A stretch of 64,000 nucleotides of DNA from Fusobacterium ulcerans ATCC 49185. GTDB lineage: Bacteria; Fusobacteriota; Fusobacteriia; Fusobacteriales; Fusobacteriaceae. Shown piece by piece: positions 21,655 through 24,317 of this stretch; position 1 is the first letter of the stretch, and every line of letters starts with the position of its first letter. The stretch is taken from NCBI RefSeq assembly GCF_900683735.1, contig NZ_LR215979.1, forward strand, positions 1,054,001-1,118,000. Reading direction: 5' to 3'. The notes beneath the pieces are model-generated. The model was given only the letters and a program-made list of their open reading frames with translations. It did no database searches and was not told where the DNA came from. Both the position numbers and the translations under genes were made by a program.

Positions 21655-21780
21655 ATAGTGATTATTATGGAATAGGTGGAGCATTAGGGACTGCCTATTT
21701 TTTATTACAAAAATTAAGAAATTATTATTCATTTTTTGAAAATAACAAAGTAATTTAGATAATACAATCTGTTGAAAAAA

Positions 21781-22172
21781 AGGTATTTGGAAGCAGTAAA
21801 ATCTGCACAATGTGAAGATATAATTAAGAAATTTTCTGATGGAATAGAGGAGCAAAGGGAGTATATCTTATAGAGGGAAAGATACAGAGAATAGCCATAG
21901 TAGGAACTATTTTTAAAGGATTCTCCTGTAATAGTGCTAGATGAGGCAGCAGCTTTTACAGACCTAGAAAATAAGCATAAAATACAAAGAGCATTGGAAT
22001 TTCTTACTGAAAATAAGCCTGATGATAGCTCACAGACTTTCTACAATAAAGAATGCAGATCAAATAATTGTTTTAAAATATGGAAAGATATTGGAACAGG
22101 GAAGCTCAAAAAGCTTGATGGAGATAAAAGATACGTACTATAAAATGGTGGAACTTTAGAATCAGAATTTAG
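21781..22172 (+). pseudogene. remnant of an ABC exporter ATPase domain
   Basis: Scattered over three frames are the parts of one ATPase domain in correct order: RYLEAVKSAQCEDIIKKFSD (21781 on), GVYLIEGKIQRIAIVGTI where the signature LSGGEQQR should be, Walker B PVIVLDEAAAFTDLENKHK near 21920-21970, then out of frame IAHRLSTIKNADQIIVLKYG and LMEIKDTYYKMVEL. At least two frameshifts and several stops separate them, and the signature motif is degraded. The best living relatives by memory are half-transporters of the YbtP/YbtQ/IrtAB kind. The short open frame at 21934-22143 is just one slice of this wreck. The membrane domain has gone. Confidence 0.7.
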
Positions 22173-22274
22173 AATAGGAATTTGAGGAGAAAATACTTCC
22201 TGAATGATTAGAATCTAAAAAATTAAAAAAACAGTTCAAAAATATAAAAAATAAAAAAATTTTTTAAAAAAATA

Positions 22275-22303
22275 TTGACTTTAATAGGAGATAGGGATAT
22301 AAT
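22275..22303 (+). promoter_or_regulatory. strong promoter upstream of leader and solute-binding protein
   Basis: TTGACT (22275-22280), 17 bases, TATAAT (22298-22303). Transcription would start near 22310, giving a leader of about 200 bases. Confidence 0.75.
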
Positions 22304-22333
22304 TGAGAAAATTATTTCATAGGAGGAGAGCAT

Positions 22334-22416
22334 AATGCTAAGGAGATTAAGGAACAGATTAAAAATAAATAATAATTATATGTTCCTTAAAGAAAGTTTG
22401 TGGTTTGAATAGCATT
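22334..22416 (+). ncRNA. structured leader RNA upstream of solute-binding lipoprotein gene
   Basis: Two nested stems: AATGCT (22334-22339) with AGCATT (22411-22416), and a perfect 10-base stem TTAAGGAACA (22347-22356) with TGTTCCTTAA (22381-22390). It sits between a consensus promoter and a terminator. It does not match a riboswitch class I can recall (no lysine, glycine, SAM or T-box features). Confidence 0.45.
22335..22412 (+). CDS. 25-residue arginine-rich leader peptide candidate
   Basis: AGGAGGAG six bases before ATG opens a 25-codon frame MLRRLRNRLKINNNY... ending in TAG. Codons 3, 4, 6 and 8 are AGG or AGA arginine codons and codon 10 is lysine, which is unusual for so short a peptide. 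The frame overlaps a strong RNA stem (22347-22356 with 22381-22390) whose left arm covers codons 5-8, so a ribosome stalled at the arginine codons would cover it. A terminator follows at 22462 and the solute-binding gene at 22520. This has the layout of an attenuation leader that senses charged tRNA-Arg, but the role is inferred. Confidence 0.5.
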   Translation: MLRRLRNRLKINNNYMFLKESLWFE

Positions 22417-22461
22417 TTGTATCTAACTAATTTATAGATTAAGATGACTTTATTTGTAATC

Positions 22462-22495
22462 AACATCAGTCTTTTTTGGACTGGTGTTTTTTTTA
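22462..22495 (+). terminator. intrinsic terminator in the leader of the solute-binding protein gene
   Basis: AACATCAGTC pairs with GACTGGTGTT (one G-U pair) around a 7-base loop, followed by eight T. It lies only 25 bases before the start codon at 22520 and downstream of the promoter at 22275, so it must be bypassed for expression from that promoter. No obvious antiterminator arm was found. Confidence 0.7.
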
Positions 22496-22519
22496 TATAA
22501 AAATTGAGGAGGAGGATTT

Positions 22520-23254
22520 ATGAAAAAAATTTTAGTTTTATTAACAGTAGTAATTGCTGTAATAGTTGTAGGATGTGGAAAAGAAAAAGAGGTAAAAACT
22601 GCAGAGAAAGTCTATGTAATTGGAACAAATGCAGAGTATCCGCCATTTGAATATTTGGAAAACAGTAAGATAGTTGGATTAGATCCAGATATTATGGAAG
22701 AATTTTCTAAAAGAATGGGGTTTCAATATAAATGGGCGAATATGAATTTTGATGGTTTGATTTCAGCATTACAAACTAGAAAAGTGGATATTGTAATAGC
22801 AGGTATGAGTATCAGTGACGAGAGAAAAAAATATATCAACTTTTCTACTCCATATATCTCACCAGCAATGTGTTATATAGCACTGAAAACTAGTCCAATG
22901 ACAACTATAGAAGATTTGGAAAATAAGAGATTTGGAATAGAATTAGGAACAACTGAAGAAGATATTGTAAAGAAAGTTCCTGGAGCAGTAATAGTACCAT
23001 TTTCAGGACATACAGCAGCTTTATTTGCTTTGAAATCAGGAAAAATAGATTCGATGCTGTTAGATGCTACAGTAGCTAAAAAATATCTTGAAAATAACTC
23101 AGACTTGAAAACAGTAGTGACAGTAGAAGGGGAAAATAAGGCAATGGCTTTTAATATAGAGGATGTTGAATTGAAAGATAAATTTGATAAAGTATTAAAA
23201 GAAATGATGGAAGATGGAGCTATTGACAAGTTAAAAGCAAAGTATGGTATTTAA
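22520..23254 (+). CDS. amino-acid ABC transporter solute-binding lipoprotein
   Basis: A 244-residue cluster-3 binding protein for a polar amino acid. It has a lipoprotein signal (lipobox VVGC, C19) and then the family motifs GTNAEYPPFEY, GLDPDIMEEF, ALQTRKVDIVIAGMSI and PGAVIVPFSG...ALKSGKID. The length is normal. No ABC permease or ATPase gene follows in this window; instead an alanine-racemase-family gene overlaps its end. The protein must use a transporter coded elsewhere or act as a sensor. Cationic amino acids would fit the arginine-rich leader upstream, but the ligand cannot be read from the sequence. GGAGGAGG is the ribosome binding site. Confidence 0.88.
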   Translation: MKKILVLLTVVIAVIVVGCGKEKEVKTAEKVYVIGTNAEYPPFEYLENSKIVGLDPDIMEEFSKRMGFQYKWANMNFDGLISALQTRKVDIVIAGMSISDERKKYINFSTPYISPAMCYIALKTSPMTTIEDLENKRFGIELGTTEEDIVKKVPGAVIVPFSGHTAALFALKSGKIDSMLLDATVAKKYLENNSDLKTVVTVEGENKAMAFNIEDVELKDKFDKVLKEMMEDGAIDKLKAKYGI

Positions 23255-24317
23255 AATGGCAGTTAATTCTATAAAAATGCTGATTTCAGAAGAAAATCTC
23301 ATTCAAAATATAAAGTATTTAGAAAAGAAATATGCAAAGAAAATACTTCCAGTACTAAAGGCTAATGCCTATGGTCATGATATAGGAATGATATCAGAAA
23401 TACTTTATAATAATGGATATAGAGAATTTGCTGTAGCTCGTTTAAATGAAGCTGAAAAAATATTGGAAAATAAAAAAATTACAGAAAGCAGAATACTTGT
23501 ATTTGAAAGTATTGGGATAGAATTTTTGGATATTATAAAAAATAATAGGTCTATAGAAGTATCTGCTAATACTTTTGCAGAATTAAAAGAACTTATAGAA
23601 AATGGAATTTCTTCAGATAATATACAATTAAAAATAGATTTTGGTTTTGGAAGAAACGGAATAATTCAAGAGGATATTGAAAATTTAAAGAAATATATTG
23701 ATGAAAAAAACTTGTTTTTTAAAGGTATATATTCACATCTTTATGCAGTGGAGTATGAAGAGGGAGCAGAACTTATTGAAAAATTTACAGAAACAGTAAA
23801 ATATTTAGGTAAAGAAAGATTTCAAGTGATTCATATACAAAATAGTGTAGGGGTATTATTATATGGAAATTGTGATATAATGACTCATCTTAGGCCTGGC
23901 ATATACATCTATGGGTTGCAGGAAGAAGGTTTTTTCCATGAAGGATTAAAACAGGTATTTAAATTAGAGGGGAAAATAGCAGGAGTAAGAGATATGAGTA
24001 GATCAAAATACTTAGCTTACAATTTAAAAACTATTTTATCTGGGAATAATTTTAGTTATGCAGCAAAGATAAAAATCGGATATGGAGAAGGTTTTTCAAA
24101 AGCAAATGAAAAAAGTTGCTGCTTGATAAATGGAAAATCATACAAAATACTCTTAGTAACTATGGATAACACTTTTATAGAAGTGGATGAGTCAATAAAG
24201 GAGGGAGATCATGTGGCACTGTATTCTGATGTTTCAAAAGTTAGAGCAGATACAGGGCTTCATATATGTGAAGTTCTTCCAGTAATAAGTTCAAGGATAG
24301 TAAGAGAAAAAATATAG
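23244..24317 (+). CDS. alr: alanine-racemase-family PLP enzyme
   Basis: A 357-residue fold-III PLP racemase. The cofactor lysine is in PVLKANAYGH (about residue 39), and the barrel contains LKIDFGFGRNG (where M/L-x-x-D-T-G-M-x-R-x-G is usual), SHLYAVE, and LRPGIYIYGL. The catalytic tyrosine region reads KIGYGEGFSK where housekeeping Alr has V-x-x-G-Y-A-D-G. Those changes leave room for another amino acid as substrate. The gene overlaps the end of the binding-protein gene, so it is probably coupled to uptake of that amino acid. ATG 23256 is an alternative start; neither has a good ribosome binding site. Confidence 0.82.
   Translation: MVFKMAVNSIKMLISEENLIQNIKYLEKKYAKKILPVLKANAYGHDIGMISEILYNNGYREFAVARLNEAEKILENKKITESRILVFESIGIEFLDIIKNNRSIEVSANTFAELKELIENGISSDNIQLKIDFGFGRNGIIQEDIENLKKYIDEKNLFFKGIYSHLYAVEYEEGAELIEKFTETVKYLGKERFQVIHIQNSVGVLLYGNCDIMTHLRPGIYIYGLQEEGFFHEGLKQVFKLEGKIAGVRDMSRSKYLAYNLKTILSGNNFSYAAKIKIGYGEGFSKANEKSCCLINGKSYKILLVTMDNTFIEVDESIKEGDHVALYSDVSKVRADTGLHICEVLPVISSRIVREKI

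Follow-up and report, generated by a model that had tools for sequence, protein, structure and literature searches.

A probable arginine-sensing leader-peptide attenuator in front of a substrate-binding protein gene of Fusobacterium ulcerans, with related leaders in other Fusobacteriaceae

In a 64,000-nucleotide stretch of DNA from Fusobacterium ulcerans ATCC 49185 (the window), the gene for an amino-acid substrate-binding lipoprotein (SBP) is preceded by a short open reading frame with several arginine codons, an RNA stem and an intrinsic terminator. This arrangement raises the question whether translation of the leader decides on transcription of the gene, and which amino acid would be sensed. 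A sequence-only reading had proposed arginine attenuation, and this proposal gained support from homologous leaders, from a stem that was re-made in other lineages and from the arginine genes found behind sister leaders. On these sequence comparisons the region is very probably a transcription attenuator of the ribosome-mediated, leader-peptide kind, responding to charged arginine tRNA and governing an operon for an arginine or basic-amino-acid binding protein. The attenuator reading was decided by comparison, namely by the occurrence of an Arg leader with a terminator before SBP orthologues, before an ABC transporter operon and before arginine genes. The region in front of the SBP gene and the two genes that follow are laid out as listed here.

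22275-22303, + strand: promoter with -35 TTGACT, 17-nt spacer and -10 TATAAT, from the sequence
22321-22326, + strand: Shine-Dalgarno (SD) sequence AGGAGG of the leader ORF, from the sequence
22335-22412, + strand: leader peptide ORF of 25 codons, MLRRLRNRLKINNNYMFLKESLWFE and stop (MLRRLRNRLK...), conserved in G008 and G010
22347-22356, + strand: segment 1, left arm TTAAGGAACA of a 10-bp stem, over codons 5-8
22381-22390, + strand: segment 2, right arm TGTTCCTTAA of the 10-bp stem, with covariation across lineages
22462-22488, + strand: intrinsic terminator hairpin (segments 3 and 4), with a T6 tail at 22489-22494
22520-23254, + strand: amino-acid substrate-binding lipoprotein (SBP_bac_3), from a domain search
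23256-24317, + strand: alanine-racemase-family gene; its ORF is open from 23244, and the ATG at 23256 is the likelier start

The promoter matches 11 of 12 consensus positions and is the best within the 4-kb stretch scanned. No promoter-like site was found on the + strand between it and the SBP gene, and similar promoters also precede homologous leaders. Directly upstream lies a decayed ABC-exporter gene (window 21700-22210); in the G008 stretch aligned to it the signature/Walker B region looks intact. The promoter, the 25-codon ORF with its strong ribosome binding site and the basic codons are as the sequence-only reading had described them, the Arg codons being AGG3, AGA4, AGG6 and AGA8 and codon 10 being Lys. 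Two AGG among four Arg codons are unusual, since AGG accounts for only 8.5% of the Arg codons in the long ORFs of the window, where Arg makes up 2.7% of all codons. When SD-preceded ORFs of 9-45 codons with at least four Arg in codons 2-9 were searched for, the leader ORF was the only one on both strands of the 64-kb window, and none turned up in 60 dinucleotide-shuffled versions of it.

The 10-bp stem between segments 1 and 2 (1:2 stem) is perfectly paired, as had been claimed, with z = -4.0 (0/200 shuffles). Its left arm had been said to cover all four Arg codons, which does not hold: the arm runs from codon 5 to the first base of codon 8 (TTA AGG AAC A) and thus covers only Arg6 and one base of Arg8. 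The intrinsic terminator predicted in front of the lipoprotein gene is present, has a folding energy of -13.7 kcal/mol (z = -6.2) and is followed by T6; the SBP ATG lies 31 nt past the terminator stem.

The best NCBIfam match of the SBP is the Lys/Arg/Orn-binding protein model TIGR01096, below its cut-off, and the ArtI/ArtJ models are near and also below cut-off. The protein resembles Gln- and cystine-binding proteins as well, and its solved relatives include ArtJ and Lys/Arg/Orn-binding proteins along with Gln-binding ones. From these matches the ligand would be arginine or another basic amino acid. The alanine-racemase-family gene is probably co-transcribed with the SBP gene. Orphan SBPs have different enzymes 3' of them. 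In the window this is the alanine-racemase-family gene, and an SBP paralogue (L072 6227-7312; G029 and G031 are also cited) is followed by an iron-containing alcohol-dehydrogenase-like gene and then an aminotransferase.

The Arg codons of the leader are conserved, which the sequence-only reading had named as a check. MLRRLRNRLK is unchanged in two genomes (G008, G010) with SBP orthologues that are 96% and 89% identical, and later residues differ in one of them. Other leaders of orthologous SBP genes keep Arg codons in MLRHLRRSNL, MLRYLRRSNL (G029, G031), MLRNLRNTKQLN, MLLRGLRNILKLN and MKLRSLRSILK. Homologous leaders occur across several Fusobacteriaceae genera; Arg codons are retained, but their positions and the other residues of the peptide vary. 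The pattern L-R-x-L-R-x-R behind an SD sequence gave 13 matches in 10 of 61 genomes, compared to a single match in all 61 for the reversed control, and these matches form two groups, one before SBP orthologues (including those of G029 and G031) and one before a polar-amino-acid ABC permease-ATPase operon. A loose Arg-leader pattern with no frame control was uninformative, the reversed control having matched equally often.

In 98 Fusobacteriota genomes the regions upstream of the permease and of every SBP relative were read. This gave 71 leaders, and an intrinsic terminator follows in 71/71. Arg makes up 28% of residues 2-12 in 39 leaders against 2.7% in ORFs, and among the Arg codons of the leaders AGG has a share of 68%, compared to 8.5% in the ORFs of the window. 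Most of the leaders in these residue and codon counts were chosen by eye, so counting by a fixed rule makes for a fairer comparison: in 40 of 48 Fusobacteriaceae regions the permease is preceded by a short ORF that has an SD sequence and three or more Arg among residues 2-12 (shuffled control 1.0, reverse strand 0). With the same rule Asn was the next best residue, found in 15 permease regions. All comparative statistics given here are drawn from related genomes. Brachyspira carries ABC permeases (L123, L124, L128) that have no Arg leader and are 71-74% identical to the Fusobacterium one, an identity that suggests gene transfer.

Which amino acid the family responds to is indicated by the genes behind sister leaders, which make or import arginine (argG, argH, argC, argJ, argB, argD); for the window SBP such a role is presumed. 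Among the loci read in the own genome, the leader MLKALKLRNRK precedes an SBP-argG operon (argG equivalog above cut-off), and the leader MLLRHERHGISNL precedes a gene for an NhaC-like transporter and, behind it, argH, which was identified by its similarity to a G004 protein that was confirmed as TIGR00838. In G004 itself (L209) the Arg leader stands directly before argH. In genus g8 Arg leaders precede argC-argJ-carA-carB-argB-argD, with argC, argJ, argB and argD above cut-off, and in g13 and g14 they precede argC-argJ operons, argC-argJ-argB among them. The arginine repressor ArgR (PF01316) was above cut-off in 0/61 Fusobacteriaceae genomes, in 1/98 Fusobacteriota genomes and in 8/14 control genomes. 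With no ArgR match above cut-off in the 61 family genomes, the leader is not expected to belong to an ArgR regulon. The arginine genes behind sister leaders, together with the lack of an ArgR match, point to arginine as the family signal and, by inheritance, as the signal of the window leader.

Some of these loci have peculiarities of their own. In G003 (L208) the Arg leader is present, but of argH only a few codons are left, and a lactate/malate dehydrogenase-like gene comes next; G004 retains argH. In L273, L275 and L276 a second Arg-rich leader, read from the sequence, lies past the first terminator and before argC-argJ operons, and each of the tandem leaders apparently has its own terminator. 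Elsewhere in the own genome (L008, G000:C1:1600114-1603842) a His-type leader, MKVISVLKNTLHHHHHR, and a terminator are found upstream of another amino-acid SBP (locus 1501), apparently a second amino acid sensed by the same kind of switch. In L025 (G001:C2:365179-368223) the leader MYSANICWTTVYGLSLSLNNLSQFSYTLLKC and a terminator precede an SBP that resembles a branched-chain amino-acid binding protein, which makes a leucine attenuator possible.

The secondary structure is conserved as well. Other lineages form the 1:2 stem from a different sequence: in a swap test with 24 lineage groups, 1:2 pairing was stronger with the own than with a foreign partner in 23 groups (p 6e-7), which bears out the compensatory changes that had been looked for. 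Pairing between segments 2 and 3 was stronger with the own partner in 16 of the 24 groups (p 0.018); for the window, 2:3 pairing was not stronger than with foreign segments. When eight permease leaders of the genus were folded together by RNAalifold, three structures appeared unprompted: the 1:2 helix at the Arg codons, in which the third Arg codon pairs with CCTT, a hairpin in the middle, and the terminator. Compensatory change was seen at 10 of 32 pairs, and the terminator covaried.

According to the sequence-only reading no antiterminator that competes with the terminator was visible. Across the family one is detectable; for the window alone the statement stands to the extent that there is just a weak candidate. 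In a masking test we calculated the cost of freeing the terminator 5' arm at a point when the 3' arm has yet to be transcribed and a ribosome masks the RNA upstream. Among 45 representatives the 5' arm was costlier to free with the ribosome at early Arg codons than with the ribosome at the stop (median +3.0 kcal/mol, p 1e-7), than with shuffled spacers (+2.6 kcal/mol, p 1e-8) and than with no ribosome (+3.9 kcal/mol, p 2e-11), these p-values being optimistic because the genomes are related. For the window, the cost was 4.4-4.9 kcal/mol with the ribosome at Arg6 or Arg8 and 0.7 kcal/mol both at the stop and without ribosome. With the ribosome at Arg3 or Arg4 it was 1.6 kcal/mol. A second inverted repeat (22357-22369 with 22449-22461) adjoins the terminator and may explain the different behavior of stalls at these two codons. 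Shuffled spacers matched the window's stall value in 16% of cases for codon 6, 8.5% for codon 8 and 77% for codon 4. A first masking test with a fixed stall at the second Arg had given no signal for the window; the later test took all Arg codons.

These calculations yield one candidate in the window:

22389-22474, + strand: candidate antiterminator, AAAGA (22389-22393) with TCTTT (22470-22474), without significance against shuffles when the window is taken by itself

The candidate closes an imperfect hairpin from 22399 and takes in 22463-22465, which leaves about 6 of 11 bases of the terminator 5' arm engaged. An antiterminator freed by stalling is thus modeled as a property of the family, with a weak candidate in the window. 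A hand-drawn antiterminator for the window, ATGTTCCTTA/TAATCAACAT, was dropped as its duplex gave only -1.8 kcal/mol. Since the terminator persists in the thermodynamic optimum of the full stalled window RNA, an effect of the antiterminator would have to be kinetic, during transcription. For the trp and his attenuators, antiterminator action during transcription is accepted.

In the mechanism that we propose, transcription would start at the 22275-22303 promoter and a ribosome would begin the leader at 22335. With ample Arg-tRNA the ribosome would reach the stop codon at 22410-22412 and cover the left side of the antiterminator, so that the terminator at 22462-22488 would form and transcription would end before the SBP gene. 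If Arg-tRNA is scarce, the ribosome is predicted to stall at the Arg codons, most likely at AGG6 or AGA8, and to cover segment 1. The 1:2 stem could then not form, bases from about 22389 would pair with the terminator 5' arm, and RNA polymerase would read through into the SBP gene and the racemase-family gene. If translation is absent the 1:2 stem would form and termination would be the default. In this scheme the sequence itself shows the parts and their conservation, the Arg bias and the arginine genes behind sister leaders; stalling, the exact antiterminator of the window, the direction of the response and the SBP ligand are inferred.

Many sister leaders contain a further conserved element, a covarying hairpin of the form TTTTGNAAAGATTRG-stem-CYATGAGYATA. 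Pairing in the inner stem reaches 97.6%, and over the whole structure 28 sequences have 44 double changes, far more than slid controls. With GA and UGA conserved on either side and a bulge of three bases, AAA, the element suggests a kink-turn. A model of the hairpin matches in 30 of 61 Fusobacteriaceae genomes; the sites of which the surroundings were read are mostly before arginine genes or the ABC transporter operon. The hairpin was not found in the window leader and has no match in Rfam. Its locations are as follows.

G000:C1:1317305-1317367, 706385-706437 and 3486128-3486172: kink-turn-like hairpin in the own genome
L277, L111, L112 and L234: kink-turn-like hairpin at other loci

The hairpin bears on an alternative in which the Arg-rich ORF has no regulatory role and the terminator is controlled by a riboswitch or a protein-binding RNA, such as this element in sister operons. 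Its covariation in many sister leaders would fit, as would its occurrence with no visible leader ORF ahead of it in a few loci before arginine genes (argH-argG in L277; L111, L112). Since the hairpin is absent from the window leader and belongs to no Rfam family, and lineages without it keep the SD sequence, the Arg codons and the order of leader before terminator, we consider this explanation very unlikely. A nascent-chain arrest peptide, of the R-x-R macrolide type or binding arginine directly, would sense through its peptide sequence and not through Arg-tRNA supply. The window peptide does contain R-L-R and R-N-R, and an Arg-Leu-Arg motif is known from antibiotic-resistance leader peptides (PMC8632094). 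However, R-x-R is missing from related SBP leaders (MLFKNLRSMPQLN, MVLRNIKKLNN), an R/K-x-R/K motif is lacking in the L002 and L012 leaders, only the Arg content is conserved while other residues and Arg positions shift, and the genes downstream serve arginine transport and synthesis and not resistance. We give this a slightly lower probability still.

Leader genes near structural genes can boost translation by reinitiation (PMC4833913), and the leader might merely do so, or might accompany a constitutive partial terminator without amino-acid sensing. Such a role would leave the 68% AGG and the strong Arg bias unexplained, and a distance of about 107 nt that contains the terminator separates the leader stop from the SBP start; it is hardly credible for this locus. 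The least probable of the four alternatives is a leader that senses leucine or a Leu/Arg pair, an idea that arises from the frequent alternation of Leu and Arg (LRxLR). Many leaders of the SBP group have L-R-x-L-R, and Leu makes up 15% of leader residues 2-12, but the same positions in ordinary ORFs have 17% Leu, so Leu is not raised in the leaders. Furthermore, in many leaders Leu is scarce around the Arg residues (MKFRNNRIRN, MKLRQRHIKIQI, MVFIFRQERNRNY) and the genes downstream are arginine genes. Attenuation in response to charged Arg-tRNA accordingly is our preferred reading of the leader family.

The known proteobacterial attenuators of trp, his, leu, ilv, thr and phe genes share a promoter, a leader ORF with sensor codons, a 1:2 stem, an antiterminator and an intrinsic terminator. 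Of a trp/his-type attenuator the window has the promoter, the short ORF with ribosome binding site, conserved sensor codons, a 1:2 stem over codons and the terminator. Trp attenuators have also been described in Corynebacterium and Streptomyces (PMC1262725). In contrast to the trp/his type, the Fusobacteriaceae leader would sense arginine and control uptake as well as biosynthesis genes, and it has no sequence match to Rfam leader families. The Salmonella speF leader orf34 is similar in that Arg codons in a short upstream ORF serve as arginine sensor: consecutive Arg codons there sense arginine supply via ribosome pausing and mRNA refolding, and the output, acting on polyamine synthesis, consists of Rho-dependent termination, ribosome binding site access and RNase G decay (PMC6386406). 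The window leader differs by its intrinsic terminator and by having its Arg codons right at the beginning of the peptide. The cysS leader uORFC-8-2 of Rhodobacterales is a comparative-genomics candidate for ribosome-mediated attenuation with likewise conserved sensor codons, which in that case are Cys codons in front of one gene in alphaproteobacteria (PMC8632094). That survey includes a Fusobacteria genome, for which a search of the main text found no mention of an arginine leader. ArgR likewise regulates arginine synthesis and transport genes by arginine, but it is a protein repressor.

Rfam families, including amino-acid leaders, T-box, lysine and other riboswitches, gave no match at gathering score in the window and sister loci, and a scan with relaxed thresholds returned only chance sub-threshold matches to unrelated families (E up to 5). 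No description of arginine attenuators in Fusobacteria was found in the open literature searched, which did not cover a 2010 survey by Lopatovskaya et al. that is said to deal with attenuation.

If the proposed mechanism is true, it would explain how arginine uptake and synthesis are matched to supply in a family in which no ArgR was found, by one sensing trick, charged Arg-tRNA, copied before transport and biosynthesis operons. Arginine would join the amino acids sensed by leader-peptide attenuators in an intrinsic-terminator system, the members of the regulon would be predictable from sequence, and orphan binding proteins such as the window SBP could be assigned to arginine. The comparison of leaders has also exposed a conserved kink-turn-like RNA outside Rfam. 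As a tentative and rather doubtful extension, the arginine genes of Fusobacteriaceae might be ArgR-free and run by a family of Arg-codon attenuators, with several copies per genome that are sometimes in tandem and many of them with the kink-turn RNA; this RNA might itself sense arginine or a related signal, with or replacing the leader peptide, and would then represent a new class of regulatory RNA.
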